Of a stretch of 64,000 nucleotides of DNA, positions 21,517 to 39,591 are shown piece after piece. The stretch covers positions 186,001 through 250,000 of the forward strand of contig NZ_SULJ01000003.1 of assembly GCF_007115105.1 (NCBI RefSeq), written 5' to 3'. This DNA is from Clostridium sp. HBUAS56010. GTDB lineage: Bacteria > Bacillota > Clostridia > Lachnospirales > Lachnospiraceae. Numbering within the stretch: the stretch's first letter is position 1; every line of letters starts with the position of its first letter. The position numbers were made by a program, and so were the translations under genes. The notes under the pieces are model-generated. The model searched no databases, was not told where the DNA came from, and saw only the letters and a program-made list of their open reading frames with translations.

Positions 21517-22530
21517 TCACAAAGAACGCTTTTTTCGCGTCTCCATTCTATATTGCTTCACGGTTATTTTTTCATACTTTTTGAATACTTTGCTGAAATA
21601 ACTGCTTTCATTATATCCCAGCCGATATGCCACATCAGCAATGCTGTCTTCTGTAAAATAAAAATATCCCTTTGCCAGATGAAGCTTTTTCATGTGAATG
21701 TATTCTGTGACACTGACATTAAGCTGCTCCCGGAAGATACGGCTTAAATATCCCTGGCTTATGGCACAGTTTTCTATAATCGTATTAAGGGTAATATCTT
21801 CTTTAATATGGTTTTCTATATAAAGAAATATATTCTCCAATAGGGGATAACGGTTAATGCTGTTTTGCTGAAACAGATAATCCATTACCCGGAAAAGCCA
21901 CAGTTCCGAGGTTTTCCGATCAGAAATTAAGGCTTCATTGATGGGGAACAGCTCTCCGATCTGTATGTTTTCATCGTAAACCATTCTGGTATCCAAAAGA
22001 TTCTGACCAATATAAGTAAAGAGCTTTATGAGCCTTGCAGAATCCTCTCCTGCCAGTTCATAAATCTGGTCAATGATTCCGGACAGACTCCGGTAGAACT
22101 CTCCAAAATCTTTCTGTCTAAGGAATATTGCCAGTTCCTCCTGATGAGTCATAACCGTATCTTCATGGTTGGTCTTATAATTTTCCAGTACCTTCTTTAA
22201 GTGGGCCCACGTGACAGGCTTTTCTAAAACATCTTTCACTTCATCTCTTGCCATGCTTCGTATAAATACATGGGAGGAAAAGGCGGAAAGCATATAAATG
22301 GTTATCTCCGGATTTGACTGATGAATCATCCTGCTGGCTTCCAGTCCTGTCATACCCGGCATCAGCATATCCATAAATACAATGTCTATGGCGTCTTCTC
22401 TGCATGCTTTGACAGCACTGTCTCCACTGCCTACCACCTGAACAATCTGGAAGGACTCGTCTCTGGATATTAAAATCTTCAAGGCTTCCTGCATTAAAAT
22501 ATCATCATCCGCAATCAGAACCCTGTACAT
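21517..22530 (-). CDS. AraC-type response regulator of the BMC locus
   Basis: 337 residues. A receiver domain occupies about 1-120 with intact acidic pocket (D8-D10), phosphoacceptor D54 in VFMDMLMPGMTG and K104 in LEKPV. A helical linker follows, then an AraC/XylS double helix-turn-helix at about 240-335 (ITLNTIIENCAISQGYLSRIF and SIADVAYRLGYNESSYFSKVFKKY). The gene lies 2 bp after the PocR-domain sensor and is probably co-transcribed with it and with the BMC operon. The likely role is activating the microcompartment genes when the diol is sensed. Its phosphorylation site looks functional although the partner kinase lacks its usual histidine. Confidence 0.9.
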   Translation of the reverse strand: MYRVLIADDDILMQEALKILISRDESFQIVQVVGSGDSAVKACREDAIDIVFMDMLMPGMTGLEASRMIHQSNPEITIYMLSAFSSHVFIRSMARDEVKDVLEKPVTWAHLKKVLENYKTNHEDTVMTHQEELAIFLRQKDFGEFYRSLSGIIDQIYELAGEDSARLIKLFTYIGQNLLDTRMVYDENIQIGELFPINEALISDRKTSELWLFRVMDYLFQQNSINRYPLLENIFLYIENHIKEDITLNTIIENCAISQGYLSRIFREQLNVSVTEYIHMKKLHLAKGYFYFTEDSIADVAYRLGYNESSYFSKVFKKYEKITVKQYRMETRKKRSL

Positions 22531-22532
22531 GA

Positions 22533-23864
22533 TTATTCCGTCCTTTCTTCATAATGTTCAGGCCAGATCAGAATGTTTTTACATCCTTTATTCCTGATAT
22601 TCTCTGAAATAATCCTATATTCTTCCCCGAAAAGCTTTTTCATCTTCTCTCTTGCATAGTCTTTCCCAAGTTTGATGTAATATCCTTCATGCTTGTCTTT
22701 AAACGCCTCATACTTTGCCTCTAATTCTACCTCTAAAAGACCGGGACCGTCATCACTGATCTCCATAATCAGGTTGTTATTCCTGATGGCTCCGCCTATG
22801 GATATCTTCCCACCCTGTTTTTTTAACATGACCCCATTATAAAGGGCATCCTGGATAAACGGCAATAAAATGCCGGAGGGCATCTTTCTCATGTGCATCT
22901 CTCTTGGCACCTGAATGGAATACTGCAGCCTGTCTCCCAGCTTCTTTTTCTGAATCAAAAGATACTTTTCTGCATGATCCAGTTCTTTGGTTACAGGGAC
23001 AAAGGTTCCCTTTTCCATACATTTATATTTTGTATATTCAATAAAAGAACCCAAAAAGTCTTGAAATTGTTCCGTATCCTCCATAATGGAAAGGTTCATA
23101 AGAGATGTCATCACATCCATGATCTCACAGGGGTTGAAATTCATCTTCAATTCCTGCAATTCCATGTTCTTTTTGGCGATCTCTTTTACAAGAACCTGAT
23201 TGGTTCCCTGGATTCTTTTGATCTTTCTCTTTAAAACATCTTCATGAAGGTGTTTGCTGACTTCATTCTCGCTTAACTGGTTGATAACAAGAAATACCAG
23301 ATTGGCGATGTCTAAAAACTTCTCATAAGAATAAACCGGAATCTCTTTTCGGAATTCCTCACACTGTTCCCTTACCTCTTCAGACTCATCGGAACGCATC
23401 ACCGATTCCAGACGACTTACGGATTCCGGCGCATCCAGACACCGAACCTGTCCGCCGATGAAGCCGCCAAGATAATGCCCTCTGACAATGATGGGAATCG
23501 CCATCTCCAAAAGACCGCAGGGACAAAAATACACATTGGTTTTTTTTGTTACGGCTGCCTGTATGGAGCCAAAGGCATCAGAGGACTTGCACCGCTCAAT
23601 TGCTTCTTCGCTTTTTCGCACCTGACTGCAAAAACTGGAAAAATAGGTTGAATCGGTGATAGGTTCGCCTCTAAAATCCACCGTTACAAACGCAACTCCC
23701 GTTGCTTTTGAAAGACTCTTCTGAATGTTCTCCAGCTTTTCTTTCCCGAATAAGTGGATAATATCCAGTTTCGTCATATTGCCTTCTTCATCTGTACTGA
23801 AATAATCATCCGGGGTATCTGACTGCATTTCAGCTAAATGGAGCAGTTCCTGATATTCTTCCAT
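22533..23864 (-). CDS. PocR-domain sensor, degenerate LytS-type histidine kinase
   Basis: 443 residues, no membrane segment. The PocR sensory domain (about 33-200) carries its cysteine pattern C79, C92, C114, C116 (the last two in FCPCGLLEM), which in PocR-type regulators senses small diols such as 1,2-propanediol. A coiled-coil linker (205-240) leads to a LytS/YesM-type kinase region. In that family the phosphorylated His lies in NPHFL; here the DNA reads NPCEIMD, with Cys at 246. The N-box is weak (FIQDALYNG) but the G-box ISDDGPG is kept. It may be a ligand-gated pseudokinase, or may work with another histidine. It sits between the alcohol dehydrogenase gene and its response regulator. Confidence 0.85.
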   Translation of the reverse strand: MEEYQELLHLAEMQSDTPDDYFSTDEEGNMTKLDIIHLFGKEKLENIQKSLSKATGVAFVTVDFRGEPITDSTYFSSFCSQVRKSEEAIERCKSSDAFGSIQAAVTKKTNVYFCPCGLLEMAIPIIVRGHYLGGFIGGQVRCLDAPESVSRLESVMRSDESEEVREQCEEFRKEIPVYSYEKFLDIANLVFLVINQLSENEVSKHLHEDVLKRKIKRIQGTNQVLVKEIAKKNMELQELKMNFNPCEIMDVMTSLMNLSIMEDTEQFQDFLGSFIEYTKYKCMEKGTFVPVTKELDHAEKYLLIQKKKLGDRLQYSIQVPREMHMRKMPSGILLPFIQDALYNGVMLKKQGGKISIGGAIRNNNLIMEISDDGPGLLEVELEAKYEAFKDKHEGYYIKLGKDYAREKMKKLFGEEYRIISENIRNKGCKNILIWPEHYEERTE

Positions 23865-23978: not shown

Positions 23979-23987
23979 ATGTTATTT

Positions 23988-25130
23988 TTATCCCTGACTG
24001 CCATTTTCCTGTCCTTCGTAGATATCAAGGAGAATCTTTTTAATCTCCTGACCTCCGATTTTAGTAGGAGTAGTGGCAAAGCAGGCATCCATAAGGGCAT
24101 TATCTCCCATATTTTGAAGCTGACTTTCATATTCCGTCCGGTCAATTCCCAGTTCTTTGATGGAGGACGGCATATTCATACAGCGCATCAGAGCTGTAAT
24201 CAACCCTTTCAGTGCCTTTACGGCAACCCCTGGGGTTTCCTTTGGCTCTGCAAGCTGAACTTTTAAGGCAAGTGCAGCATACTTTTTAAGGACTTCCTGA
24301 TCTTTACTATTATATTCAATCACCTGATTTAATAGTATAGCATTTGCAAGGCCATGTGGAACATGGAAAGTTCCTCCAAGTTGATGAGCAATGCTGTGGT
24401 TCACACCCAGACCAGCCGTATTAAATGCGATTCCAGCCAAAGTGGAAGCTTCCTGCATCATGGTTCTGGCCTTTAGATTTTTTCCATCCATGTAACAGCC
24501 CAGAAGAGATTTTAACAGAAGTTCTACGGATTTCTCTGCCATTGCATCGGAAAATACATTGGCGCCGGTGGCAACATAAGCCTCTAATGCGTGAGTCAGC
24601 ACATCCATTCCTGTATTTGCCGTTACCACCTGGGGAACAGTCACCGTCAGCACCGGATCTAAAATTGCCACATCCGCCAGAATATCTTCTGAGGCAATCA
24701 GATGCTTACTCTTATTTTCCGGATCTGTGATAACAGACGCAGAAGTCACTTCTGAACCGGTTCCGCTGGTTGTTGGAACTGCTACAAAAAGAGGTTTGGG
24801 AGCCAGTTGTTTTGCCATGGAAAAGTAAATAATTCCTTTTGCAGTATCAATGGCAGATCCGCCTCCAAAGCCAATGATTACGTCGGGCTTCACCCGGCAC
24901 ATCATGGAAATCCCCGATCCAACCACCGCAATGGTGGGATCAGGGATGGCTTTGTCAAACAGCTCTACAACATTGCCAGAAGAAAGAATATCCGTTAAAT
25001 ACTTAACAGCTCCATTTTCAGCAAGGAATTTATCACAGACAATCATGATGCGTCTGTTTTTCAGACTCTTCAAATATTCCTTTGCCTGCTTCCCTTCCTG
25101 TATTCTGGTTTTCATGTATACATTTGACAT
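23988..25130 (-). CDS. pduQ: iron-type alcohol dehydrogenase, PduQ/EutG-like
   Basis: 380 residues of the group III (Fe) alcohol dehydrogenase family: GGGSAIDTAKG for NAD(P)H binding, PTTSGTGSEVTSASVI, and metal ligands within NHSIAHQLGG and FHVPHGLANAIL. In diol BMCs this enzyme reduces part of the aldehyde (propionaldehyde to 1-propanol) and so regenerates NAD+ inside the shell for the acylating aldehyde dehydrogenase. The short N-terminus (MSNVYMKTRIQEG) has no clear encapsulation helix. It is 42 bp after the aldehyde dehydrogenase gene and is the last enzyme gene of the operon. Confidence 0.9.
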   Translation of the reverse strand: MSNVYMKTRIQEGKQAKEYLKSLKNRRIMIVCDKFLAENGAVKYLTDILSSGNVVELFDKAIPDPTIAVVGSGISMMCRVKPDVIIGFGGGSAIDTAKGIIYFSMAKQLAPKPLFVAVPTTSGTGSEVTSASVITDPENKSKHLIASEDILADVAILDPVLTVTVPQVVTANTGMDVLTHALEAYVATGANVFSDAMAEKSVELLLKSLLGCYMDGKNLKARTMMQEASTLAGIAFNTAGLGVNHSIAHQLGGTFHVPHGLANAILLNQVIEYNSKDQEVLKKYAALALKVQLAEPKETPGVAVKALKGLITALMRCMNMPSSIKELGIDRTEYESQLQNMGDNALMDACFATTPTKIGGQEIKKILLDIYEGQENGSQG

Positions 25131-25172: not shown

Positions 25173-26588
25173 TTATCGAATGCTGAATGCATCAGAGAGA
25201 ACGCATTTGCGCTTCCTGCAGAAGGATCTTGCAGAAGTAAGGCCTTCTCCGGTAGGTCCTGCAATGGTAAATGTGGTATGACCTTCTCCGCCTGCACCGA
25301 TTCCTGCATAAGATGGTGCATTTTTTACAAAGATGGTGGTTTCCAGCATTTTTGCCATCTTGCTTAATTTCTCCACGTTCTGGGAGTGCATCATAGCAGT
25401 ATGACGGTTTCCATGCTCTGCTTCCAGTGCATATTCAATTGCAGTATCTACATCTGATACACGAACGATTGGAAGAATTGGCATCATCATCTCTTCCTGA
25501 ACAAACAGGTCATCCTTTGGCACTTCCATAATAATAACACGAACAGAATCCGGTACTTTTACGCCCAGTTTCTCCATGATATATACGGCACTTTTTCCAA
25601 CGAAGGAAGTCTTTGGTCCGCCTTTTTCTGTGGTTACCATCGCTTTTAAATCCTCGATCTGCTGTTTGTCAGTGATCAGGTAAGCTCCGTTTTCCTTCAT
25701 GTACTGGATTAAGTGATCACAGATGGAATCCACTGCAAATACTTCCTTTTCTGCGATACAGGGAACGTTATTATCAAAACTGCTGCCATCAACAATATCT
25801 TTTGCGGCTTTCTTAATATCTGCGGTTTCATCAACTACAACCGGAGGATTTCCTGCTCCTGCTCCAATTGCTTTCTTTCCGGATGAAAGAACTTTCTTTA
25901 CGATAGAAGGACCGCCGGTAGCAACCAGAAGACGTACCTTTGGATTGCTGATCATTTTTTCTGTATTCTCCAGAGATGGCTCTTCCACCATAGAGATTAA
26001 ATCAGAAGGTGCACCTGCTTCTTTTAAGGCTTTGTTTAACATCTTAACAAGAAGTCTGGAAACCTTTTTTGCTCTTGGGTGAGGGCTGAAAATAACGGTA
26101 TTGCCCCCTGCAATCATAGAAATAGAGTTATTGATGATTGTCTCGGTTGGGTTCGTGGTTGGTGTAATCGCACCAATCACTCCAAATGGGCAATACTCTG
26201 TAAGAGTCAGACCATTATCACCGGTTACTGCTTCGGAAACCAGATCCTCTGTTCCAGGAGTCTTTTCAGCAGCAAGACGGTTCTTAATGAGTTTATGTTC
26301 ATAATGGCCGATCTCAGTTTCTTCCACTGCCAGTCTGGAGATCAGCTCCAAATTTTCTTTGTTCAAAATGGTTTTACGCATTACATCTACATATTTCTGA
26401 CGATCAGCAATTCCGGTAAATAACAGCTTTTTCTGTGCTTTTTCAGAAGCCTCAATTGCTTCATCCATGGTTGTAAAGAGACCATATCTTTCTACATTCT
26501 GTTCCGGTGTGCTGATAAGTTTTTCTGACTGAATTTCCCGTAAAACCTGTTCTACCATCTGCTCAATTGCTTTTAAATCCATATCCAA
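25173..26588 (-). CDS. pduP: CoA-acylating aldehyde dehydrogenase with encapsulation helix, PduP-like
   Basis: 471 residues. Residues 1-22 (DLKAIEQMVEQVLREIQ) form an amphipathic helix typical of cargo encapsulation peptides, then a variable linker to the EutE/PduP-type catalytic body. Catalytic Cys is C277 in FDNNVPCIAEK; the C-terminus has the family motif RSFCRKRKCVLSDAF. It oxidises aldehyde to acyl-CoA with NAD+ inside the microcompartment. The start may be TTG at 26588 (AAGGTAG at good spacing) or ATG at 26582. It lies between pduL and the alcohol dehydrogenase gene. A second, shorter paralogue without the helix is encoded at 28842-30155. Confidence 0.9.
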   Translation of the reverse strand: MDMDLKAIEQMVEQVLREIQSEKLISTPEQNVERYGLFTTMDEAIEASEKAQKKLLFTGIADRQKYVDVMRKTILNKENLELISRLAVEETEIGHYEHKLIKNRLAAEKTPGTEDLVSEAVTGDNGLTLTEYCPFGVIGAITPTTNPTETIINNSISMIAGGNTVIFSPHPRAKKVSRLLVKMLNKALKEAGAPSDLISMVEEPSLENTEKMISNPKVRLLVATGGPSIVKKVLSSGKKAIGAGAGNPPVVVDETADIKKAAKDIVDGSSFDNNVPCIAEKEVFAVDSICDHLIQYMKENGAYLITDKQQIEDLKAMVTTEKGGPKTSFVGKSAVYIMEKLGVKVPDSVRVIIMEVPKDDLFVQEEMMMPILPIVRVSDVDTAIEYALEAEHGNRHTAMMHSQNVEKLSKMAKMLETTIFVKNAPSYAGIGAGGEGHTTFTIAGPTGEGLTSARSFCRKRKCVLSDAFSIR

Positions 26589-26634: not shown

Positions 26635-27276
26635 TTACTGCTCTTTTCTGATAATTACATAGTCGCCATTGCCTAGTGAAAGGGCATTCGCCTCATCCAC
26701 GTCAACGTGCATTTCCAGAGCAAACTGATCCGATACACGAACCAGAACATCTCCGAATACACCACGCCTTTCGCCAAATGTCTCTACTTCCACCATGTCT
26801 TTGTCTTTCAAGCCCATGGCTTGTGCCTGACCTGGTGTCATATGTATGTGGCGTAAAGCAACAATGGCTCCTTCTGAAAGAGAAACGGTTCCTGCCGGAC
26901 CGACTAAATCCAGTCCGGGAGTACCTGTTAAATCTCCGGATTCCTTTATGAAAGGCCGGATTCCAAGACGGAAACTGTCGGTTTTTGAAACCTCAACCTG
27001 ACTTTGTTTTCTCACTGGTCCAAGAATCCGCACCCGTTCAAATTCTCCCTTAGGGCCTCGTATGGTCACTGTCTCATTGCTGGCAAACTGGCCAGGCTGT
27101 TTTAAATCTGCCTTTTTTGTCAGTTCGTAGTCTTTTCCGTAAAGTATGTCTAAATCCTGTCTGGATACATGGACATGCCGGTTCGATACCCCTATGGGAA
27201 CTTTATGTGTATCATAATCTTTGATCTTCTCGATTACCCGCTTGGTCACAAGCTTAATTAATTCTTCTTTATCCAT
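26635..27276 (-). CDS. pduL: PduL-type phosphate acyltransferase
   Basis: 213 residues. The first 20 residues (MDKEELIKLVTKRVIEKI) look like an encapsulation helix. The two PduL beta-barrel domains follow, with VPIGVSNRHVHVSRQDLDIL (zinc-binding His pair), KKADLKQPGQFASNETV and GAIVALRHIHMTPGQA with the second metal-binding His set. PduL converts acyl-CoA plus phosphate to acyl-phosphate and frees CoA within the compartment, unrelated to Pta. The acyl-phosphate would go to the kinase at 38398-39591. It lies 46 bp upstream of the PduP-like gene and 39 bp after a shell gene. Confidence 0.95.
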   Translation of the reverse strand: MDKEELIKLVTKRVIEKIKDYDTHKVPIGVSNRHVHVSRQDLDILYGKDYELTKKADLKQPGQFASNETVTIRGPKGEFERVRILGPVRKQSQVEVSKTDSFRLGIRPFIKESGDLTGTPGLDLVGPAGTVSLSEGAIVALRHIHMTPGQAQAMGLKDKDMVEVETFGERRGVFGDVLVRVSDQFALEMHVDVDEANALSLGNGDYVIIRKEQ

Positions 27277-27315: not shown

Positions 27316-27591
27316 TTATAATTTTGGTAAAATCTTTTCTACATCGGTATGAGGTCTTGGAATCACATGCTGGGATACCACTTCCCCTACATTGGCTGCT
27401 GCGGCTGCTCCTGCATCAACAGATGCTTTTACTGCGCCTACATCACCGCGAACCATAATTGTAACAAGACCAGAACCAATCTTCTCGTAGCCGATCATGG
27501 TTACATTGGCTGCTTTTGTCATAGCATCTGCTGCTTCAATTGCTCCTACCAGACCTTTTGTTTCTACCATTCCTAATGCTTCATTTGACAT
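27316..27591 (-). CDS. BMC-H hexameric shell protein, PduA/EutM-like (copy 1)
   Basis: 91 residues, one BMC domain: [20 protein letters not shown], the pore loop region [20 protein letters not shown] and the conserved ending [15 protein letters not shown]. It forms the hexagonal tiles of the shell facets. About four fifths of its residues match the BMC-H protein at 31818-32096, so these are recent paralogues kept at two ends of the operon. TCAGGAGG precedes the start. Confidence 0.97.
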
Positions 27592-27628: not shown

Positions 27629-28816
27629 CTATGAAAAGGCTAACTGTTTTAATATCCATGCCTTATCTGTTTCTTCCCAGCCAAATCCCTGGTCGCTTCT
27701 TCCGAAATGGCCATAGGCTGCCGTCTTTAAATATTGGGGTCTGCGAAGCTTTAATTCGGATATGCAATCGGAAACCCCGAAAGAAAATACATTTTTTACA
27801 AGTGTCTCCATCTGACTGTCCGGAATGGTTCCGGTTTCAAATGTATTAACTGTAATTGCCTCCGGCTCTATTCCGCCGATGACATAGGCAAGAGCCACTT
27901 CACATCGCTTTGCCAGACCTGCCGCCACAATATTCTTTGCCACATACCGTGCCATATAAGCAGCAGAGCGATCCACTTTCGTGGGGTCCTTACCGGAGAA
28001 GGCTCCTCCTCCATGTTTCGCAATGGTTCCGTAGGTATCTACCATAATCTTTCTTCCTGTGACACCCGTATCTCCTGCCGGACCGCCAATCACAAACCGC
28101 CCGGTGGGATTAATATGAATTCTTGTCTTTGGTGTCATAAGATCGGAATCAATGATCGGCTCAATGACCGTACACCGGATAAATGCTTCCAGCACCTCTT
28201 TGGAAACCGCTTCACTGTGCTGAACAGATACCACAATGCTGTGAATTCCAACAGGTTCTCCTGCCTGGTTATACCGGACTGTAACCTGGGTTTTTCCATC
28301 GGGATATAGAAAGGAGCCGCCCTGGGTCTGTCTGATATGATCCAGTCTCTCTGCCAGGCGGTTTGCCAGATAGCAGGGCAGGGGCATAAGACTTTCAGTC
28401 TCATTCACTGCATAGCCATACATAACACCCTGATCTCCGCCTCCAAGCACTTCTTTTTCTCCGTCTTTTCCCTTTGTCACTCCCTGAGAGATGTCTGGAG
28501 ACTGATTATGTATATTGGTAAAGATCATGCAGGTGTCGGCATCAAAGCCTTTTCCATGCTCTACATATCCGATATTCCGAATAATTTCCCTTGCTTTTTT
28601 TATGACGTCAATCTGTGCTTTTGAGGTAACTTCTCCTGCCAGCATCAGCGTGTTCGTAGACGCCATAACCTCTACCGCCACCCTGGAAGCAGGGTCCTCT
28701 GCCAGATAAGCATCAAGAATCCCATCAGCGATCTGGTCGCAGACTTTATCGGGATGCCCTTTGGTTACGGATTCTGAGGTTACGAAATAGGTTCTGCTAT
28801 TGCACCCTTCCAACAT
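27629..28816 (-). CDS. metK: S-adenosylmethionine synthetase within the BMC operon
   Basis: 395 residues, full length. Motifs: FVTSESVTKGHPDKVCDQIAD (ATP/Met site), GGGDQGVMYGYA (usual form GAGDQG) and GGGAFSGKDPTKVDRSAAY (phosphate loop). It makes SAM from methionine and ATP. Its location, 26 bp after the second aldehyde dehydrogenase gene and 37 bp before a shell gene, ties it to the glycyl-radical system, whose activase consumes SAM. The N-terminal extension MLEGCNSR is short and not an obvious encapsulation helix. Whether it works inside the shell, or whether a housekeeping metK exists elsewhere, cannot be told from this window. Confidence 0.95.
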   Translation of the reverse strand: MLEGCNSRTYFVTSESVTKGHPDKVCDQIADGILDAYLAEDPASRVAVEVMASTNTLMLAGEVTSKAQIDVIKKAREIIRNIGYVEHGKGFDADTCMIFTNIHNQSPDISQGVTKGKDGEKEVLGGGDQGVMYGYAVNETESLMPLPCYLANRLAERLDHIRQTQGGSFLYPDGKTQVTVRYNQAGEPVGIHSIVVSVQHSEAVSKEVLEAFIRCTVIEPIIDSDLMTPKTRIHINPTGRFVIGGPAGDTGVTGRKIMVDTYGTIAKHGGGAFSGKDPTKVDRSAAYMARYVAKNIVAAGLAKRCEVALAYVIGGIEPEAITVNTFETGTIPDSQMETLVKNVFSFGVSDCISELKLRRPQYLKTAAYGHFGRSDQGFGWEETDKAWILKQLAFS

Positions 28817-28841: not shown

Positions 28842-30155
28842 TTAACGGAGGGCAAAGCCATCAGTCAGCGTACACCTTCTTCTTCTGGTGAAATGCCTTG
28901 CTGTGGCGGTTCCCTCTCCCGTCGCTGTTGCAACGGTAAAGCTGGTATGCCCTTCCAAATCAAATCCCACTCCAAGCAGAGACGGACCATTTTTAACGAA
29001 TACAGAGGTCTGCATCTTCTGTGCCGCCCGGTTTAAGTGTTCAATGGACTGGGAGTGGACCGTAGCTGTATGTTTGAATCCCTGTTCTACTTCTAATGCG
29101 GTTTCTAATGCCTCGTCAAAATCAGAAACAATAACCAGAGGCACTAAAGGCATTAACAGTTCAAGGGTTACAAAAGGATGGGTCTTCTTTGTTTCCACTA
29201 CAATCAGCTTCACAGGAGAGGAACAGGAGATTCCTGCGCTGGCAAGGATCTTATCAGCACTTTTTCCTTCCAGTTTTTTGTGAATGGTCAGGTCCTGTGT
29301 TACTGCGACCTGGAGAAGCTTCTGGATTTCCGCTTCATCCTTTACATAATAAACCCCTTTCTTTAAAAGCTGATAAATCATTTCTTCTGCCGCCGGCTTT
29401 GTCACCACAATACATTTTTCAGAAGTACACATTAAATTATTGTCAAATGCGGCTCCACGGACAATATCATACGCTGCCTGTTTTAAATCTGCAGTTTCAT
29501 CTACGATGGCAACCGGATTGGCGGGACCTGCTCCGATTACCCGTTTTCCGGAAGACATTGCCTGAGAAAGAGAATCCGCTCCTCCGGTACAGACAACAAG
29601 GTCTACGTCCGGATGACTCATAATCTCTTTTGTGTATCCCATCAGGCTCTCATGGAGCGTTACCACAAGATCGGGAATCTGACAGGTGTTTAATACGGCA
29701 TTGCTGATTACTGCTGTCACAAGCTGGGATACTCTTAACGCCCTTGGATGAGGGCAGTGCACCACACCGTTTCCTGCTGCCAGCATTCCGATGGTATTGT
29801 TAATGAGCGTTGCACAGGGGTTTGTGGAGGGCTGAACCGCACAGACAACTCCTACGGGAGCCAGTTCATATAAGGTCATGCCGTGATCTCCTGTATTGAC
29901 CTCTGTAATCAGATCCTCAACACCCGGAGTCTTTTCGATTGCCAGACGAATCTTCTCGGTCTTGTCGGCTTCATTACCCATACAGGTCTCTGCTACCGTC
30001 AGCACCGCCAGTTCCTCCGCCAGAGGACGAAGAGCTGCCCTTACTGCTTCGATTACCTGCCGCCGTTCATTTAACGTCAGAGCGGCATACTTTGCAGATG
30101 CGTTTTTCGCTGCTGCTACTGCATCTGTTACACTGGAGTAAATACTGCTAATCAT
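28842..30155 (-). CDS. second CoA-acylating aldehyde dehydrogenase, EutE/PduP family
   Basis: 437 residues. Same family as the protein at 25173-26588: NTGDHGMTLYELAPVGVVCAV, catalytic C243 in FDNNLMCTSEK, and the C-terminal motif RHFTRRRRCTLTDGFALR. It lacks the N-terminal helix and linker, starting directly at MISSIYSSVTDAVAAAKNA, itself an alanine-rich helix. Two such enzymes in one diol BMC are unusual. They may act on different aldehydes, form a mixed complex, or one may be outside the shell. ALDH-1 and ALDH-2 are clearly diverged, not a recent duplication. AAGGAGG precedes the start. Confidence 0.9.
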   Translation of the reverse strand: MISSIYSSVTDAVAAAKNASAKYAALTLNERRQVIEAVRAALRPLAEELAVLTVAETCMGNEADKTEKIRLAIEKTPGVEDLITEVNTGDHGMTLYELAPVGVVCAVQPSTNPCATLINNTIGMLAAGNGVVHCPHPRALRVSQLVTAVISNAVLNTCQIPDLVVTLHESLMGYTKEIMSHPDVDLVVCTGGADSLSQAMSSGKRVIGAGPANPVAIVDETADLKQAAYDIVRGAAFDNNLMCTSEKCIVVTKPAAEEMIYQLLKKGVYYVKDEAEIQKLLQVAVTQDLTIHKKLEGKSADKILASAGISCSSPVKLIVVETKKTHPFVTLELLMPLVPLVIVSDFDEALETALEVEQGFKHTATVHSQSIEHLNRAAQKMQTSVFVKNGPSLLGVGFDLEGHTSFTVATATGEGTATARHFTRRRRCTLTDGFALR

Positions 30156-30199: not shown

Positions 30200-30463
30200 T
30201 TAACCGACCAAGTTATCGACGATTCCGATAATTGCCATGTCAATAACCGCTTCCCGCTTCCTTTTATCTACGCGGACAGAGGAGCCCTGGCCGATTAAAA
30301 CCGTTTCGCCTACTCCTGCTCCCACATAGTCTACTGCTACTTCTTCCGAATCTATGAAATTGCCCTGGGAATCAATTCTGCGAACGATCATCAGTTTGTA
30401 ACCCGTCAGGGTTTCATCTTTTCTGGTCGCTACAACAGTACCTGTAATCTTTGCCAGCCTCAT
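30200..30463 (-). CDS. BMC-P pentameric vertex protein, EutN/PduN/CcmL family
   Basis: 87 residues, matching the family: MRLAKITGTVVATRKDETLTGYKLMIV, VAVDYVGAGVGETVLIGQGSS and VDMAIIGIVD-type ending (here VIDMAIIGIVDNLVG). Pentamers cap the vertices of the polyhedral shell. It is the only BMC-P gene in the window, so the shell should have a single vertex type. Lies 31 bp after the tailed BMC-H gene and 44 bp before the second aldehyde dehydrogenase gene. Confidence 0.97.
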   Translation of the reverse strand: MRLAKITGTVVATRKDETLTGYKLMIVRRIDSQGNFIDSEEVAVDYVGAGVGETVLIGQGSSVRVDKRKREAVIDMAIIGIVDNLVG

Positions 30464-31817: not shown

Positions 31818-32096
31818 TTACAGAATATTTGGAAGAACCTTTTCAACGTCAGAATGAGGACGTGGAATTACATGGGTAGATACCAGTTCGCCTACTGCTG
31901 CTGCAGAAGAAGCTCCTGCATCAGTAGCTGCCTTTACTGCACCTACGTCTCCTCTTACCATAACAGTTACAAGTCCTGATCCGATCTTTTCATATCCAAC
32001 CAGTGTTACATTTGCTGATTTTACCATGGCATCTGCTGCCTCAATTGCTCCGATTAAACCTTTTGTCTCTACCATACCTAATGCGTCTGCGCTCAT
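31818..32096 (-). CDS. BMC-H hexameric shell protein, PduA/EutM-like (copy 2)
   Basis: 92 residues, a single BMC domain with [37 protein letters not shown] and the end [18 protein letters not shown]. Very similar to the copy at 27316-27591; differences cluster around residues 57-70 ([17 protein letters not shown] against [17 protein letters not shown]). TAAGGAGG precedes the start. It is 47 bp after the BMC-T gene, and the two together probably make most of the facet area. Confidence 0.97.
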
Positions 32097-32143: not shown

Positions 32144-32944
32144 TTAAATATAGGGCTGCTGAGAGGATTTTGCTTCGTCTCCCATTGCTCCAAGAAGCTT
32201 CTTACCTGCTTCTATGGCTGCACGCACTGCCTGCCTTACTGCACCGGAATCTCCGGTAAAGGTAAGAATTGTCTCATTGGAATAGCTGGTTCCAGCCGCT
32301 GGAGAGCTGTAACTTACCACTTCAACATTTGCTGCTTTTACTGCAACATCTGCCAGAACCGTTCCAATGGCTGCAGGTCCTGCACAGGTCATTCCAAATG
32401 CCTTTCCCATAGGTGCTCCAAATGCTTTTTCCAGACAGTAGCTGGCTCTTGCAGTATACTGGAACTCCAGATGGCCCGCATCATTGGAATAAACATCTCC
32501 AAAATATTTTGGCAGTACCTGAAGTGCAATCTCAACAGCTCTTCTGGCATCGGATACATCTTCTGCACCGATATAGATTAAACTTCCGTGTCCTGCTCCG
32601 CCTTTTGTATCTCTTGGAAGTTCTACGGAAAGGACTTCTGTATTGGTTGCTTTTACAGCTTCATCCACTGCCCAGATCTGAGGACCTGCGCCAGTTCTGC
32701 CGCCTATGATACCGATGGAACGGTATTTTCCAAGCTTCATGGCATCTGCAAGCATTGGGTCCACACTGGCAATGACAAGACCTATGGTATCACCAACTGT
32801 GGTTCCCACATACTCCGTCATTCCAATTCCTGCTGCTGCCGGACGTGCTGTTTCTGTTTTTTTAGTCTCTTGTCTGGTTTCTGGTTTGATTCCCAGTTCG
32901 TCAGAGACCTGTTTCATTACTTTTTCAATTAACTGCTGATCCAT
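32144..32944 (-). CDS. pduB: BMC-T tandem-domain shell protein, PduB-like
   Basis: 266 residues. Two fused BMC domains (about 55-155 and 160-255): PTxAD-like SVDPMLADAMKLGKYRSIGIIGG, HGSLIYIGAEDVSDARRAVE, then VADVAVKAANVEVVSYSSPAAG and ETILTFTGDSGAVRQAVRAA. An N-terminal helix (MDQQLIEKVMKQVSDELGI) and linker precede them, as in PduB, where this extension links shell and enzyme core. Trimers are thought to have larger, gated pores for diols or cofactors. The gene follows the activase by 25 bp. Confidence 0.93.
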   Translation of the reverse strand: MDQQLIEKVMKQVSDELGIKPETRQETKKTETARPAAAGIGMTEYVGTTVGDTIGLVIASVDPMLADAMKLGKYRSIGIIGGRTGAGPQIWAVDEAVKATNTEVLSVELPRDTKGGAGHGSLIYIGAEDVSDARRAVEIALQVLPKYFGDVYSNDAGHLEFQYTARASYCLEKAFGAPMGKAFGMTCAGPAAIGTVLADVAVKAANVEVVSYSSPAAGTSYSNETILTFTGDSGAVRQAVRAAIEAGKKLLGAMGDEAKSSQQPYI

Positions 32945-32969: not shown

Positions 32970-33887
32970 CTATCCACCGATTACACACCGAAAACCGAAG
33001 TTTTCCACAATTGCCTTACATTCTGAAAGATCTTCCGGATTCAGCGGTTTTACATGTTTCAGCTCGTAATCTTTTCCTAATAATTCATACTTATTTTCTC
33101 CAAATGAATGATAGGGGAGAAGATGTATGGTTCTTATACCGGTCAGTGTTTTTGCAAATTCTGCAATGGCGCCGATCGCCTCCGTGGAATAATTAAAACC
33201 AGGAATTACCGGAACCCGGATTACCGTATTCGATATCTGGGTGATGCGGGGAGCATTCTTTATAACTCCTTCATTGACAGCCCCCGTAAACCGCCTATGC
33301 TGTTCCGGGTCCATATGTTTCACATCTAAAAGAACCGTATCCACATATGGTATAACTGCTTCAACTGCCTCAGCACTTCCAATTCCAGTTGTCTCAATGG
33401 CTGTGTTCCAGCCCTGGCTCTTGCTGGCTTTTAAAAGTTCTGAAGCAAACTCATACTGCACCAGCGGCTCCCCTCCGGAAAGGGTGATTCCCCCTCCGGA
33501 ACGGCGGTAAGTGGTTGCATCCTTTTTCAGTTCCCGCACAACCTGCTGGATAGACATGGTTTTTCCTTTTGAAACCAGGGCACCTGTAGGACATGTATTG
33601 GCACATTCTCCGCATCCAGTGCACAAATCTCTGTCAATCCAGTTTTCATTCTCCGGGCTGATGGCTCCCGCCTTACATGCCTTTATGCAGCGTCCGCAAT
33701 GAATACATTCATCTTTCTTATACATCATGACTGGCTTTATACTCTGGGATTCCGGATTGCTGCACCACTGACAGGAGAGAGGACAACCCTTTAAAAATAC
33801 GATTGTACGGATTCCCGGACCATCGTGCAGGGAAAACCGCTGGATATCAAATACGGTTCCCGTCAGATTATAATTAATCGAATCCAT
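32970..33887 (-). CDS. glycyl-radical enzyme activase (radical SAM)
   Basis: 305 residues. The radical-SAM cluster motif CPLSCQWC uses C35, C39 and C42, preceded by RFSLHDGPGIRTIVFLKG. Two ferredoxin-type clusters follow (C61, C64, C67, C71 and C89, C92, C95, C99), the insertion found in activases of glycerol/diol dehydratase and choline lyase but absent from PFL activase. GGGITLSGGEPL is the SAM-binding strand. It makes a glycyl radical on the dehydratase encoded 32 bp upstream, using SAM and a reductant (flavodoxin or ferredoxin). Confidence 0.95.
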   Translation of the reverse strand: MDSINYNLTGTVFDIQRFSLHDGPGIRTIVFLKGCPLSCQWCSNPESQSIKPVMMYKKDECIHCGRCIKACKAGAISPENENWIDRDLCTGCGECANTCPTGALVSKGKTMSIQQVVRELKKDATTYRRSGGGITLSGGEPLVQYEFASELLKASKSQGWNTAIETTGIGSAEAVEAVIPYVDTVLLDVKHMDPEQHRRFTGAVNEGVIKNAPRITQISNTVIRVPVIPGFNYSTEAIGAIAEFAKTLTGIRTIHLLPYHSFGENKYELLGKDYELKHVKPLNPEDLSECKAIVENFGFRCVIGG

Positions 33888-33919: not shown

Positions 33920-36439
33920 TTACATGGTCTGCTCGGTACGGCTGATAATGTCATCCTGAACTTCTTTTGCAAGAACCGTAAACTGTGCGCTGTATCCTGC
34001 TACACGGACTACCAGATCTTTATGCTGATCCGGATCAGCCTGTGCGGCTAACAGTGTTTCACGATCAATAACGTTAAACTGAACGTGCATTCCTTTGTGG
34101 TCAAAATAGGAACGTACAATTGAAGCAAAATGCTTCAGACCATCATCTCCTGCCAATGCAGAGGGAAGGAATTTCTGGTTATATAAGGTTCCGTTTGAAT
34201 AATTGGCATGATCCAGTTTTGAAACTGACATGGCAGCGGCAGTCGGGCCATTGGTATCTTTTCCCTGTCTTGGTGATACACCGTCTGCTAAAGGTTTCTT
34301 AGCCAGTCTTCCGTCTGGAAGTGCTCCAACATCCTTACCGAATAATACATTGGCAGATACCGGATAACATCCCGCCTGGAACTGACCGCCTCTTGGGTTT
34401 TTATATTTTTCCACTTCATAGGAATAAATCTGTCCGCAGCGTCTTGCGATCATATCCACTTCATCTTCGTCATTTCCATACCATGGGGTATTCTCAAGAA
34501 TTCTCTTGATTTGGGCATAGTCTTCCTTATTACCGGAAGTCTGCTGTACCGGCTTGCTTAACTGTGCCTGTAAATCTGCAAGATTAATGGAACCGTTGTT
34601 GCTTAAAATTCGTTTTACTGCTTCATAAATTTTTGCTTCGTCTGTGATCTCTGCTGATGCTGCATTCTCGCAGTCATATCCGAAGTTATGATCAAGAGCT
34701 TCCTTTAACTGTGCCATTGTAATCTCTTTGTTTTCAAAGACATGTTTCTTAATGGCGCACAGGGAATCTCCCGCATCTGCTACACCAAATGCCTGAGGAC
34801 CGGTAAAGTTATAGATGGCTCCGCCTTCCTGAACACTCTTGCCGCGGCCAATACAATCATCAACCAGTGCGGATAAGAATGGAAGGGGTGCACGCTCTGC
34901 ATGAGCATAATCCACGCAGTTATCTGCTTCTGCAAGATGGTATACAAAATACTCCATCTGTTTTTTATATGCTTCAAAAAGCTGCTCTAAGTTAGTAAAG
35001 GAAGTAATCTCTCCAGTTACAGGACCTAACTGCTTCTCTCCAACTCTTCCGTTATTCAGAGTAATCTCTAACACTTTTGCAATGTTAAAGAATGCGGCAT
35101 CATGCCAGCCCTCTGTTTTATTCGGACACTGTGGTTCTACACAGCCGATGATACAATAATTTCTGGCATCTGCTAAGGATACTCCTCTGTTGCAGAGTGC
35201 CGGAACAATCACTTCATCGTTATACATAGCCGGAACTCCAAGGCCTAAACGAGTCAGCTCACAGGCACGGTAAAGGAATTCGTCCGGTGTATTCTGGTGA
35301 ACACGGATCGAGAAAGAAGGTGCAGGAAGTTTTACATGAGCAACTGCTTCCATACACATATAAGACATCTCATTGGTGGCATCAAGACCATCTTCTGTCT
35401 GACCGCCTACGATCAGGTTCTGGAATACTGCATATCCTGCAAATGCCTGAGCGGACACTTCATCTCTTGTCTTATTGACATCATTTAATTTTACCCATAC
35501 ACAGTCAACCAGTTCCTGTGCGAACTCATGGGAAATTCCCTGATCCATTGTAAGATATGGATTCATATACTGATCAAAACGTCCTGGTGAAATAGAATGA
35601 CCATTGGCCTCAATCTGAAGAAGGATCTGTACAAACCAGAAGGACTGGCATGCTTCATAGAAATTGGTTGCACCCTGTTCCGGAACCCGGTCACAGTTGG
35701 ATGCGATCTGAAGCAGCTCTGCTTTTCTCTTTGCATCGGGACAAACCGCTGCCATCTCTCTGGCTTTGGCTGCGTAACGATGTGCAAACTGAATTGCAGC
35801 CGTATATGTAATAATGAGAGCTTCATAGAAATTTTTCTTTTTAATATAATCAGGATCTCCGGTATTTAACTTTGCCATAGCTTCCATTACCTGACGGATA
35901 ATTCCTGTAAATCCGATCTTTAATACTTTGCCGTAATCTGCACATACATGACCAACACCGCCATAGAAGTAGTTTCCTACTGTAAATACGCCATAGTCGA
36001 TACAGTCCTTTGTTTCCTGGGACATATAGGATTCTGCCAGGGCACTGGTTGTCTTTCCATCCCAGTACTTAAATGCTTCTCTTAATTCTGTTTTAGTCTC
36101 CTGTGGAATCTGGAATGGATCTGCCATTCTGGTTCCCATGGTATCAAACTCTTTTTCTACCCATTCATAGGAAAACTCAGGGCAGATCTCGGTGGAACGG
36201 AGATTCTTTGTAATGGCACCTACAATTAACTCATCATCATGAATGGTAATAGGAAGGTTCCTGAAAATCTTATCCGCTGCCTTTGCTCTCCTCATAATTG
36301 GAGAAAGACCCTCTGTTTCTTTATAAGATTCTGTTACCAGAACGGCACGTTCTGACTCTACATATGGAACCGCGTTAACGATAGCACTCTTTAATTTTTT
36401 TACACGCTCCGTTGGCTCTGTAAACCCTTTTGCAAGCAT
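33920..36439 (-). CDS. B12-independent glycyl-radical diol (1,2-propanediol/glycerol) dehydratase
   Basis: 839 residues. Catalytic C433 and E435 lie in GCVEP; H164, H281, S282 and D447 occupy the positions that bind substrate in Clostridium butyricum glycerol dehydratase; the radical glycine is G815 in RVAGYSAQF. The overall sequence is close to that enzyme, but residues about 588-640 are an insertion with a helix EAKIYEAVKRILSNNG and a Q/S/T linker, which resembles an internal encapsulation sequence and explains the extra length (839 against about 787). It dehydrates a vicinal diol to the aldehyde. Propanediol is preferred by context (PocR sensor, PduP/L/Q); glycerol to 3-hydroxypropionaldehyde remains possible. 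It is the first gene of the BMC operon. Confidence 0.92.
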   Translation of the reverse strand: MLAKGFTEPTERVKKLKSAIVNAVPYVESERAVLVTESYKETEGLSPIMRRAKAADKIFRNLPITIHDDELIVGAITKNLRSTEICPEFSYEWVEKEFDTMGTRMADPFQIPQETKTELREAFKYWDGKTTSALAESYMSQETKDCIDYGVFTVGNYFYGGVGHVCADYGKVLKIGFTGIIRQVMEAMAKLNTGDPDYIKKKNFYEALIITYTAAIQFAHRYAAKAREMAAVCPDAKRKAELLQIASNCDRVPEQGATNFYEACQSFWFVQILLQIEANGHSISPGRFDQYMNPYLTMDQGISHEFAQELVDCVWVKLNDVNKTRDEVSAQAFAGYAVFQNLIVGGQTEDGLDATNEMSYMCMEAVAHVKLPAPSFSIRVHQNTPDEFLYRACELTRLGLGVPAMYNDEVIVPALCNRGVSLADARNYCIIGCVEPQCPNKTEGWHDAAFFNIAKVLEITLNNGRVGEKQLGPVTGEITSFTNLEQLFEAYKKQMEYFVYHLAEADNCVDYAHAERAPLPFLSALVDDCIGRGKSVQEGGAIYNFTGPQAFGVADAGDSLCAIKKHVFENKEITMAQLKEALDHNFGYDCENAASAEITDEAKIYEAVKRILSNNGSINLADLQAQLSKPVQQTSGNKEDYAQIKRILENTPWYGNDEDEVDMIARRCGQIYSYEVEKYKNPRGGQFQAGCYPVSANVLFGKDVGALPDGRLAKKPLADGVSPRQGKDTNGPTAAAMSVSKLDHANYSNGTLYNQKFLPSALAGDDGLKHFASIVRSYFDHKGMHVQFNVIDRETLLAAQADPDQHKDLVVRVAGYSAQFTVLAKEVQDDIISRTEQTM

Positions 36440-36887: not shown

Positions 36888-37346
36888 ATGAATGATTCCC
36901 AAATGACGGGAGATATTGCAGCGGCTGTAATACAGGCTTTAAAGGGAGAGAGAATGACCTTAAAAGAAGCTTTGCTTTTAATCGAACGGGGGGAAGAGAT
37001 GGCAAGATCCATTGCAGTTCCCATGGTCTTTACTGTCGTGGACGAAGGTGGGAACATGGTTGCCATGCACCGTATGGATGATTCCCTTCTTGCAGGAATC
37101 GCAGTTTCCAATGCAAAAGCCTATACATCAGTTGCCCTTCGTATGTCAACCGAAGAAGCTGCTAAATCCGTTCTTCCCGGACAGCCTCTTTATGGGCTTC
37201 AAGAAACCCACCCAGGGAAGTTCTGTGTCTTTGGAGGCGGAGTCCCCATTACCTTCAACGGCCGTCTGATCGGCGGACTGGGTGTTTCAGGAGGAACAAC
37301 AGAGCAGGATATTACCGTAGCAAAATACGCCGCCGGCATCTCTTAA
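36888..37346 (+). CDS. PduO-C/GlcG/HbpS-family protein with encapsulation-like N-terminus
   Basis: 152 residues. The C-terminal about 125 residues are a haem-degrading/HbpS-like (DUF336) domain: LTLKEALLLIERGEEMARS, FTVVDEGGNMVAMHRMDDS, KAYTSVALRM and the glycine-rich GGGVPITFNGRLIGGLGVSGG. Residues 4-18 (SQMTGDIAAAVIQALKG) resemble a BMC encapsulation helix joined by a short linker. In Pdu systems the related PduO C-terminal domain binds haem or corrinoid; here there is no B12 enzyme, so its job is unclear. It is divergent from the dehydratase gene and has its own promoter and terminator. Confidence 0.85.
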   Translation: MNDSQMTGDIAAAVIQALKGERMTLKEALLLIERGEEMARSIAVPMVFTVVDEGGNMVAMHRMDDSLLAGIAVSNAKAYTSVALRMSTEEAAKSVLPGQPLYGLQETHPGKFCVFGGGVPITFNGRLIGGLGVSGGTTEQDITVAKYAAGIS

Positions 37347-37428: not shown

Positions 37429-37445
37429 AATTGGTATAAAGATTG

Positions 37446-38330
37446 TCAGGGAAGAAAGAATCCATTCCCAAACAATATATTTACAAGAAATGTGAAGATA
37501 AATATGGTACATGCCGGCGGATCCACATGGGTATCGCAATGGCTGTTAAGAGTCTTCACAATAAAATCACCAAATAATGCAGTCAGAATTCCAAAGACAA
37601 CTCCCATAAGCGGATTGCCGGAAATCACCGCTGCCAATGCCGAAATCAGGGCAATGTGATGGGTTGAAGGAACTGCAAACCCGGTCTGGGTAAACATCAG
37701 AGAAAATGCCGCAATTCCAAAACAGAGAACAGGGAAATTCCCAATAGCAGCTTCTGACGCTCCGGCCGCTGCCATTGTCTGGTACACAAATCCGGTTGCT
37801 GTCCCGATTCCGCCGCCAAGAAGCACATTGCAGAATAATCCCTTTCCAAGCGTTATGTATTCTCTCTTTTCTCCCGATTCTGTTTTTCCAATCAGACCGC
37901 TGCTTCCAAATGCAAACCGTGCAATCAATCCAGATATAACAACGGTGATTCCAGGAAGATCGGTATTCAGACGTAAAACACTGCCTGCTCCATAGTGAAT
38001 CACAAACCCAAGGACACCAAACACACCGCCCACGACCAAGGTCATGGGATCATTCAATCCAAACAGAGGAGACAAGATGTCCGTGCCGCTTTTAAGAAGC
38101 TTCTTTTTTCCTGCGTAAGCCGCCGCTGCCACGCCGCCTGCAAAAGCAACATGAGGACCAAGGTAGGAACCAAAGGCAACATAACCGATGGTTACGTCTC
38201 CTCCCCCCGCCATCGCCACTACCGCTCCTGCTATGGCAAGCAGTCCCGTCAGTATAAATGCCGGCAGCGCTCCTAAGTATGCTCCAATGATTCCTCCCCC
38301 AAATGCCCCGATGAAAGCAAAAATATCCAT
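37446..38330 (-). CDS. glycine-rich multi-pass membrane protein of the BMC locus
   Basis: 294 residues with about eight to ten hydrophobic helices rich in Gly, Ala and Ile; the start is FAFIGAFGGGIIGAYLGALP. Two conserved-looking histidine motifs stand out: PSTHHIALISALAA and SHCDTHVDPPACT, plus polar loops at 70-85 and 145-165. The first part (1-60) and the part around 220-260 look like a distant internal duplication. I do not recognise the family. Its position 68 bp after the kinase gene and next to a diol BMC suggests a channel or transporter for diol, aldehyde or acid, but that is inference. Confidence 0.6.
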   Translation of the reverse strand: MDIFAFIGAFGGGIIGAYLGALPAFILTGLLAIAGAVVAMAGGGDVTIGYVAFGSYLGPHVAFAGGVAAAAYAGKKKLLKSGTDILSPLFGLNDPMTLVVGGVFGVLGFVIHYGAGSVLRLNTDLPGITVVISGLIARFAFGSSGLIGKTESGEKREYITLGKGLFCNVLLGGGIGTATGFVYQTMAAAGASEAAIGNFPVLCFGIAAFSLMFTQTGFAVPSTHHIALISALAAVISGNPLMGVVFGILTALFGDFIVKTLNSHCDTHVDPPACTIFIFTFLVNILFGNGFFLP

Positions 38331-38397
38331 GTCTTTCCTTCTCCTTTTGCTCTTTTATTTTAAGCCCTTTTAACCCCACTCAGGCTTATAAACTGTT

Positions 38398-39591
38398 TTA
38401 TGAAACGATGGAAATTGTCTCTCTGGCAATGGCTAATTCTTCATTTGTTGGAATCACTAAAACGGCTACTTTAGAATCCTCAGTGGAAATTAACTGTTCG
38501 CTTCCTCTTTTTGCATTTGCTTCCTCATTTACTCCAATTCCTAAAAATGCAAGCTGGTCACAGACTTTCTTTCTCATGGCTCCATCGTTTTCCCCTACCC
38601 CTGCGGTGAAGGCAATGGCGTCAATTCCACCCATGGCTGCTGCATAAGCACCAATGTATTTTACAACACGGTATGTAAAGGCATCCAGGGCAATCTGTGC
38701 TCTGTGGTTTCCCTCTTCTGCTGCCTTCATAATATCACGAAAATCGCTGGATACTCCGGATACTCCAAGAGCGCCGGATTTTCTGTTGAGCACATCAAGC
38801 ATCTCATCAATGGTTAAGTTCTCTTTATTCATCAGATACTGCATGGCGCCAGGATCTACGTCTCCGCTTCTGGTTCCCATTAAAAGCCCTTCTAAAGGAG
38901 TAAATCCCATACTGGTATCTACAGACTTTCCATTCTTAACGGCTGAGATACTGGAACCGTTGCCCAGATGGCATACCACAATCTTCATGGACTCATAATC
39001 TTTCTTCAGATATTCTGCCACTCTCTTAGAAACGTAGCTGTGGCTGGTTCCATGGAATCCGTATCTTCTGATCTTATACTTCTCATAATACTCATAAGGA
39101 AGACCATAGAGGTAGGACATCTCTGGCATGGTCTGGTGAAATGCCGTATCAAAGACTGCCACCATAGGAGTCTCCGACATCAGCTCCTGACACGCTCTTA
39201 TGCCGGTTAAACTGGCTGGATTATGAAGAGGTGCCAGAGCACAGCATTCTTCAATTGCCTTTAATGCTTCCTCTGTAATAAGGGCAGAAGAGGTGAAAAT
39301 CTCTCCTCCATGGGCAACACGGTGTCCAACTGATCCGACTTCATCTAAACTTTTTATAACACCCGACTGTTCATCGGTGAGCAATCTCTGCATGATTTTA
39401 ACTGCTTCTTTGTGTGTGGGCATAGGTGCAACGGTTACACTCTTCTCTCCGCCCTTTTTCTGGTAAGTGACCTTGCTCTCATCAATTCCAATCCGCTCGC
39501 AAAGTCCAATTGCCAGCACTTCCTCTGATTCCGGGTTGATTAACTGGAATTTAAGGGAAGAGCTTCCGCAGTTAATTACCAATGTGTACAT
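38398..39591 (-). CDS. ackA: acetate kinase family (acetate/propionate kinase)
   Basis: 397 residues from the ATG at 39591 (AGGAGGAACAATT upstream; the longer frame to 39615 has none). Signatures: [51 protein letters not shown] and [13 protein letters not shown]. It phosphorylates ADP from acyl-phosphate. There is no pta next to it, and PduL is in the adjacent BMC operon, so it may serve as the propionate kinase (PduW role) for that pathway as well as general acetate kinase. It has its own upstream gap of 157 bp to argR. Confidence 0.93.

Follow-up and report, generated by a model that had tools for sequence, protein, structure and literature searches.

In a window of 64,000 nucleotides from Clostridium sp. 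HBUAS56010 (positions 186,001 to 250,000 of contig NZ_SULJ01000003.1), Pfam and NCBIfam scans recognise 17 genes on the minus strand (21517-39615) and one divergent gene on the plus strand that together make up a glycyl-radical diol-dehydratase microcompartment locus. We consider it very probably a GRM3-type microcompartment operon for the anaerobic, B12-independent fermentation of 1,2-propanediol. It represents a catalogued organelle type in typical form, in a Lacrimispora-like clostridium, and is not a new subtype. The locus itself is a further instance of a described organelle, and two by-products of the analysis, an orphan membrane protein and a sensor without the usual histidine, matter more.

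An earlier note on this DNA had proposed a diol-type glycyl-radical microcompartment near GRM3 that includes regulation, ATP recovery and MetK, and gene content, residues and the enzyme tree all agree with this. The genes it named lie in the interval on the minus strand, its "kinase alongside" being an acetate kinase by Pfam; two genes that it left unnamed are an HbpS/DUF336 gene on the plus strand and the gene for a 235-aa protein.

The dehydratase and the core of the locus

The scans took in 20 open reading frames, every gene of the interval included, and the domain scores exclude chance (PF02901, E = 5e-248; PduB equivalog, 403 bits). Of the features that define GRM3, the locus has a diol-type glycyl-radical enzyme with its cognate activase and an insertion within the enzyme, expected at about 60 residues and lacking in glycerol dehydratase; the core of aldehyde dehydrogenase, phosphotransacylase PTAC (PduL), alcohol dehydrogenase and shell genes of the BMC-H, BMC-T and BMC-P kinds; and the ancillary acetate kinase, MetK, two-component pair and DUF336 protein.

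The signature enzyme, a dehydratase of 839 aa (33920..36439, minus strand), aligns without gaps over residues 1-587 with the glycerol dehydratase of Clostridium butyricum (1r8w) and matches it at His164, His281, Cys433, Glu435 and Asp447. Its glycyl loop reads RVAGYSA and contains Gly815. We take these six to be the substrate and radical residues. The closest solved structure is 9rco (1304 bits), followed by 1r8w (1058 bits). An insertion of about 50 residues near 588-640 has no counterpart in 1r8w (the HMMER alignment stops at 587 and resumes at 642), and in GRM3, GRM4 and GRM5 dehydratases such an insertion has been described as an internal encapsulation peptide (PMC6325248, PMC5311937). The activase (32970..33887, minus strand; Pfam Radical_SAM and Fer4, TIGR02494) carries a ferredoxin-like insert.

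For comparison we used 77 loci; they are a sample, since the pattern search behind them gave 100 matching stretches. A tree of 73 glycyl-radical enzymes, built by a quick method from that of the window, 70 from the sampled loci and two others of the same genome (the latter on very long branches), places the window's enzyme among Lacrimispora-like clostridia, inside a set with C. beijerinckii and Rhodobacter, and separates it from the Lachnoclostridium phytofermentans/Blautia group (GRM5) and from the CutC of its own genome. The earlier note had named a grouping with choline lyase as the outcome that would overturn its proposal; the tree gives no such grouping, and identity as a choline lyase (CutC of GRM1/GRM2) was rejected, the TIGR04394 score being only 572 bits against a cut-off of 1050. 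The second glycyl-radical enzyme of the genome is CutC (TIGR04394, 1684 bits), and its gene lies about 73 kb from that of the window's enzyme. It belongs to a second microcompartment locus on the same contig, at about 135.7-150.8 kb (35-50 kb before the first base of the window), which has a CutC choline lyase with its activase and would be of the GRM1 type.

Conservation of the gene order is extensive. In four relatives (L001, L002, L003 and L059), the 16 genes of the window from acetate kinase to alcohol dehydrogenase occur in identical order, followed by the kinase and the regulator, and the order is similar in ten further loci (L004-L011, L041 and L058).

Some absences weigh against a GRM3 assignment: PduS and EutJ, frequent in GRM3, were not recognised among the open reading frames of the interval, and a PF00936 search showed no further BMC-domain gene (PduT or GrpU) there. 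A peptidase, which like the EutJ homologue is common though not universal in GRM3, is not among the 20 frames scanned, which cover the interval.

A degenerate sensor kinase with an intact regulator

The operon ends with a two-component pair on the minus strand: a PocR-domain, LytS-type sensor kinase (22533..23864; Pfam PocR and His_kinase) and an AraC-type response regulator (21517..22530; Pfam Response_reg and HTH_AraC) whose receiver pocket (DD, D, S and K) is intact. The "degenerate sensor" of the earlier note is real: by alignment, its H-box reads NPC where NPH is expected, with Cys246 in place of the phospho-acceptor histidine that a functional LytS-type histidine kinase would carry, and the N-box asparagine is replaced by Asp339. 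Because the phospho-acceptor histidine is lost, we regard the sensor as probably a pseudokinase.

Of 48 kinases (47 homologues and that of the window), 19 retain the H-box histidine, among them all 14 proteobacterial rows; in the other 29 its place is taken by Y (12), C (5), S (4), Q (4), F (2), R (1) or V (1). Of the 29 histidine-less kinases, 19 have a replacement of the N-box asparagine as well, as do 3 of the 19 with the histidine, and the receiver pocket of the partner is complete in 27/29 and 17/19 of these pairs, respectively. On the kinase tree, five changes of the trait are needed, four of them forced by well-supported branches; several branches of this tree are long. The kinases of the B12-dependent PDU loci all keep the histidine (NPHF in 6/6), and in comparison loci with other kinases NPH is present in 7/8, the eighth (L118) giving no match to the pattern used.

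It is less likely that the sensor is instead a normal histidine kinase that uses another histidine, or else a decaying gene. Pfam His_kinase still matches it (7e-9), and His205, invariant in the 13 of 13 near rows, could be a phospho-site, a point that counts against a pseudokinase; so does the H-box histidine of 5/34 non-proteobacterial rows, and the kinase of C. beijerinckii HUN142 (L074) retains it too. The joint replacement of the N-box asparagine in 19 of the histidine-less rows and the constancy of NPHF in the PDU loci argue against a normal kinase. As for decay, the dN/dS of the kinase (0.044 and 0.053 against L094 and L096; saturated against L097) is as low as that of the dehydratase (0.043 and 0.045 against L002 and L003), which indicates purifying selection and makes decay unlikely.

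As a ligand-responsive pseudokinase, the PocR sensor would feed the AraC-type regulator either by controlling it through contact or by gating its phosphorylation by another donor, for example an acyl-phosphate. A PDU regulator of Acetobacterium was phosphorylated with acetyl-phosphate for DNA binding (PMC7593272), and an acyl-phosphate donor is therefore conceivable here. No description of the degenerate sensor was found in the parts of the literature searched. If the reading as a pseudokinase is right, a branch of microcompartment sensors works without the usual histidine phosphorylation, and models of operon induction would have to be altered.

An orphan membrane protein that alternates with aquaglyceroporin

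Between the divergent gene and the acetate kinase lies a gene for an orphan polytopic membrane protein of 294 aa (37446..38330, minus strand). It has no Pfam or NCBIfam match, and for its family, aligned in 33 rows, the best Pfam match (E 0.013) and the single match to a solved structure (E 0.93) are not credible. We looked for a relationship to the aquaglyceroporins (MIP, PF00230, which includes PduF), and with E allowed up to 10 none of the 33 rows matched MIP. The alignment has 40 invariant columns, including His224, His225, Asp266, Asp270, Pro271 and Pro272. An internal two-fold repeat is suggested, and only suggested, by hhalign, which gave it a probability of 22% and a score of 27.2; the highest score from 20 shuffles of the columns, a treatment that removes helix periodicity as well, was 17.3.

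Members of the family are found repeatedly in GRM3 loci, both clostridial and proteobacterial, and also in PDU operons of the B12-dependent kind. Among 391 genomes of the class, own genome included, the membrane protein is present in 14 and PduB (E 1e-60 or better) in 22, with both in 11. Eight of the 13 membrane-protein genomes other than that of the window have a B12-dependent diol dehydratase (PF02286). In six of these eight (L143-L147 and L149), 9-11 kb separate the membrane gene from the dehydratase, and the membrane gene shares its strand with PduB, PduL and aldehyde dehydrogenase; in the seventh (G225), a short contig carries the membrane gene together with aldehyde dehydrogenase, DUF336 and BMC genes; and in the eighth (G352), the membrane gene lies elsewhere. 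Its presence in both GRM3 and B12-dependent loci indicates that the membrane gene tracks the diol pathway rather than the chemistry of the enzyme.

In C. beijerinckii DSM 6423, a table lists a "conserved membrane protein of unknown function" in the GRM3 locus, whose genes CIBE_4883-4904 are induced on rhamnose, the membrane protein with log2 values of 8.75/7.81/5.87 (PMC6384099). In C. beijerinckii HUN142 (L188), the order regulator, MetK, membrane protein, BMC-H, PduL and aldehyde dehydrogenase matches CIBE_4890, 4889, 4888, 4887, 4886 and 4884; across strains, CIBE_4888 (log2 8.75 on rhamnose) is thus very likely this membrane protein. In the parts of the literature searched, no description of a role for the family was found.

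The entry of 1,2-propanediol is usually credited to the aquaglyceroporin PduF. Our proposal, which rests on genomic context and to which we give about even weight, is that the membrane protein is a small-polyol facilitator for 1,2-propanediol and the like that replaces PduF. In 59 of the 77 loci, PduB was matched at 80% coverage or more; with the membrane protein or a MIP counted when it shares a contig with the dehydratase and lies no more than 17 kb away, 38 of these have only the membrane protein, nine only a MIP, none both and 12 neither (one-sided Fisher P = 2e-5 for exclusion, with relatedness ignored). Two loci with the membrane protein and an insufficient PduB match (L038 and L048) were left out of the count. 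Local scans covered fetched flanks of up to 10 kb for all 77 loci, and whole-genome searches took in 41 genomes for the membrane family and, for MIP, 41 and the own genome; outside these genomes the count covers the fetched flanks. Among the 38, the gene of L009 is fragmented and interrupted by stops, and in the genome of L015 the match contains a single stop, possibly its own end. The own genome has no MIP match.

The nine MIP loci span at least four lineages of the enzyme tree, and related organisms show the alternation. Enterobacter (L037) has a MIP, and the membrane protein occupies the same slot after the activase in Serratia (L031) and Mixta (L061). Azospirillum (L071) and Telmatospirillum (L017) have a MIP; Oleisolibacter (L016) and Roseospira (L027) have the membrane protein (loci L185-L187). 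A MIP is also found in the Eubacterium/[C.] aminophilum group (L022, L024, L042 and L069) with L019, and in Photobacterium (L047). The MIP calls rest on Pfam for L019, L022, L024, L037 and L047, on family search for L017, L069 and L071 and on a local profile for L042. It should be mentioned that the channel of L022, L024 and L069, encoded shortly before the dehydratase gene, is divergent, NPG replacing one NPA motif. Elsewhere, in L151, the membrane gene directly follows that for the glycerol kinase GlpK (TIGR01311, 764 bits), and the genome (G136) has no MIP match, so that the membrane gene stands where glpF would be expected.

Several observations count against a role in transport: 12 of the 59 loci have neither protein; a MIP is also present, outside the locus, in three of the 14 membrane-protein genomes of the class; and among the solitary copies (L148, L152-L154 and L157), which are flanked by a mixture of genes, several have non-polyol neighbours. 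A genome-wide exclusion of the two proteins was considered and rejected, a MIP occurring in 3/14 membrane-protein genomes and in 101/377 other genomes; only the exclusion within the locus holds. We think it rather unlikely that the protein exports the products (propionate or propanol) or vents propionaldehyde, rather than importing the diol: in the window, in L001-L003 and L059 and in many loci of proteobacteria, the membrane gene does adjoin acetate kinase, as would suit an exporter, but neither its alternation with aquaglyceroporin in homologous loci nor its position after glycerol kinase in L151 would be expected of one.

As 38 of the 59 loci with a glycyl-radical enzyme and PduB carry this unclassified protein and not PduF, a transport gene for a common fermentation may have escaped notice. 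Ravcheev 2019 describes displaced transporters for ethanolamine and choline and, in the part cited, names none for propanediol (PMC6620236). Taken jointly, we tentatively suggest, with slightly less than even confidence, that the membrane protein establishes a new family of facilitators for small polyols (1,2-propanediol/glycerol) that is unrelated in sequence to the aquaglyceroporins and displaces them in many glycyl-radical and B12-dependent diol-microcompartment operons, and that the clostridial glycyl-radical branch is run by a sensor pseudokinase with a phosphorylatable regulator.

Substrate and proposed pathway

We infer that the substrate of the dehydratase is 1,2-propanediol. The GRM3 system of Rhodopseudomonas palustris, reconstituted in vitro, was active on 1,2-propanediol and not on glycerol, from which no 3-hydroxypropionyl-CoA was formed (PMC5311937), and the C. 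ljungdahlii GRM3 locus is induced by 1,2-propanediol (PMC12016505). Both results argue against a glycerol-fermenting microcompartment in which the dehydratase forms 3-hydroxypropionaldehyde, as does the lack in 1r8w of the insertion found in the window's enzyme. That glycerol dehydratase is nonetheless the second-best solved relative and is identical at the active-site residues compared; this speaks against our choice of substrate, as the sequence would suit glycerol too. We consider glycerol fermentation improbable.

With 1,2-propanediol as the substrate, the orphan membrane protein would most likely admit the diol, the role of PduF elsewhere. MetK would supply S-adenosylmethionine, with which the activase would install the radical on the dehydratase, and inside the shell the dehydratase would convert 1,2-propanediol to propionaldehyde. 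The aldehyde would then be divided between propanol, through the alcohol dehydrogenase, and propionyl-CoA, through the aldehyde dehydrogenases; propionyl-CoA would become propionyl-phosphate by PduL and finally propionate, with ATP, by the acetate kinase, probably outside the shell.

Remaining genes and neighbourhood

The other genes for these steps lie on the minus strand. The iron-containing alcohol dehydrogenase (23988..25130; Pfam Fe-ADH and NCBIfam) would turn aldehyde into alcohol and regenerate NAD+. PduL, the phosphate propanoyltransferase (26635..27276), matches Pfam PTAC at 7e-79, and MetK, the S-adenosylmethionine synthetase (27629..28816), has three Pfam S-AdoMet_synt domains. The acetate/propionate kinase of the ATP step (38398..39615; Pfam Acetate_kinase, 2e-161) has its longest frame starting at 39615, and an internal ATG at 39591 is the boundary used in the earlier note.

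There are two acylating aldehyde dehydrogenases. Number 1 (28842..30155; NCBIfam PRK15398, 563 bits) lacks the N-terminal extension and, aligned to 5jfl, has its catalytic residues intact. Number 2 (25173..26588; PRK15398, 702 bits) is PduP-like, has the catalytic Cys, Glu, His and Thr and, judged by eye, begins with a putative encapsulation helix. A figure legend on GRM1 calls the second aldehyde dehydrogenase a dead copy (PMC8217296); for the second gene here, 28842..30155, this was rejected, Cys, Glu, His and Thr all being present. In 5 of 30 relatives (L022, L024, L042, L067 and L069), the catalytic Cys of this second enzyme is a His, and in these it is probably catalytically dead yet kept.

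The shell genes comprise a PduB-type BMC-T (32144..32944; NCBIfam PduB, 403 and 383 bits, exceeding the cut-offs), a BMC-P vertex protein (30200..30463; Pfam EutN_CcmL) and three BMC-H by Pfam BMC (27316..27591, 30495..31067 and 31818..32096). The middle one of these is the "tailed shell protein" of the earlier note: a tandem array of 15-bp units at 30597-30720 encodes its low-complexity Lys/Glu/Ala/Val tail. The corresponding BMC-H is tailed in all 13 relatives examined, with 53 to 166 residues after position 85 and several basic ends.

The 235-aa protein (31090..31797, minus strand) is probably a cargo protein, in the slot of CIBE_4896. It has a weak match to TIGR02536 (eut_hyp) and none in Pfam, and profile searches of Pfam and PDB gave no credible match; in one row of the 30-row family alignment, there is a weak match (E 0.14) to Flavoprotein, a GRM3 ancillary family. 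Its N-terminus resembles, by eye, an encapsulation peptide. Long forms of the family share the C-terminal motif KRxIT...GDIxTxLAKDxA, and 7/30 rows are a short form without it. The divergent HbpS/DUF336 gene (36888..37346, plus strand; Pfam HbpS-like, 1e-34) encodes a protein like the C-terminal part of PduO.

Rfam and tRNA scans of the 64-kb window gave no match, and a sigma54-like consensus pattern had no match upstream of the glycyl-radical enzyme gene in the window, L001-L004 or L059. By eye, the arginine deiminase pathway genes arcA, arcB and arcC adjoin the locus at 41508-44718, with ArgR-type and AraC-type regulators, and on the other side (19187-20809) a Fur/PerR-type regulator and, after it, two rubrerythrin-like genes form an oxygen-defence cluster adjoining the radical-enzyme locus.

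Comparison with known loci

The earlier note had suggested that the extras of this locus could make it a variant subtype, and had named an identical gene set that is common and already catalogued as evidence to the contrary. Such a set is largely on record, through two papers and the four relatives of identical order: the GRM3 ancillary list of Axen 2014 includes acetate kinase, peptidase, flavoprotein, EutJ, MetK, a two-component pair and DUF336, with secondary aldehyde dehydrogenase genes in Clostridium cf. saccharolyticum and C. beijerinckii (PMC4207490), and two aldehyde dehydrogenases, MetK, the two-component pair and the membrane protein all stand in the published C. beijerinckii locus (PMC6384099). 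A genuinely new subtype, marked by duplicate aldehyde dehydrogenase, MetK, tailed shell protein, degenerate sensor and membrane protein, could claim the unrecognised PduS and EutJ, both in the C. beijerinckii locus, and the regulator pair at the operon end after alcohol dehydrogenase rather than between it and MetK, but most extras being on record, the fourteen loci of identical or similar order, the enzyme's place inside GRM3 in the tree and the tails of the corresponding BMC-H make it very improbable, and it was dropped once literature and relatives matched the gene set.

Among the named loci, GRM5 of L. phytofermentans (L057) shares a diol-type glycyl-radical enzyme with activase, aldehyde dehydrogenase and PduL; it differs in having no match to the PduB query at 80% coverage, and its enzyme, on another branch, is only 52% identical to that of the window. 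An aldolase is also on record for GRM5. One genome (G283, contigs C36 and C37; contamination given as 1%) combines a PDU locus of the B12-dependent kind with a GRM3-like dehydratase that is 70% identical and has PduB at a distance of 6 kb; this runs counter to the statement that B12-dependent PDU and GRM3-like systems never co-occur (PMC5311937).

The GRM3 locus of R. palustris BisB18 has, like the window, a diol dehydratase with an internal insertion, activase, acylating aldehyde dehydrogenase and PduL; its substrate is demonstrated whereas ours is inferred, and the two were compared from the published description (PMC5311937). The fullest likeness is to GRM3 of C. beijerinckii DSM 6423 (CIBE_4883-4904; PMC6384099): both have the glycyl-radical enzyme, activase, PduB-type BMC-T, BMC-H genes, BMC-P, two aldehyde dehydrogenases, PduL, alcohol dehydrogenase, MetK, LytS-type kinase, response regulator, conserved membrane protein and, in the same slot, the protein of uncertain function. 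The C. beijerinckii locus has in addition PduS, EutJ, PduV and PduO, not recognised in the window, and four BMC-H against three; according to its authors it has no propionate kinase, whereas the window has acetate kinase; and the positions of the kinase-regulator pair and of the membrane protein differ. The C. ljungdahlii GRM3 locus likewise shares the glycyl-radical enzyme, activase, kinase-regulator pair, PduB and alcohol dehydrogenase, and its list includes an aquaporin, in place of which the window has the orphan membrane protein (PMC12016505).

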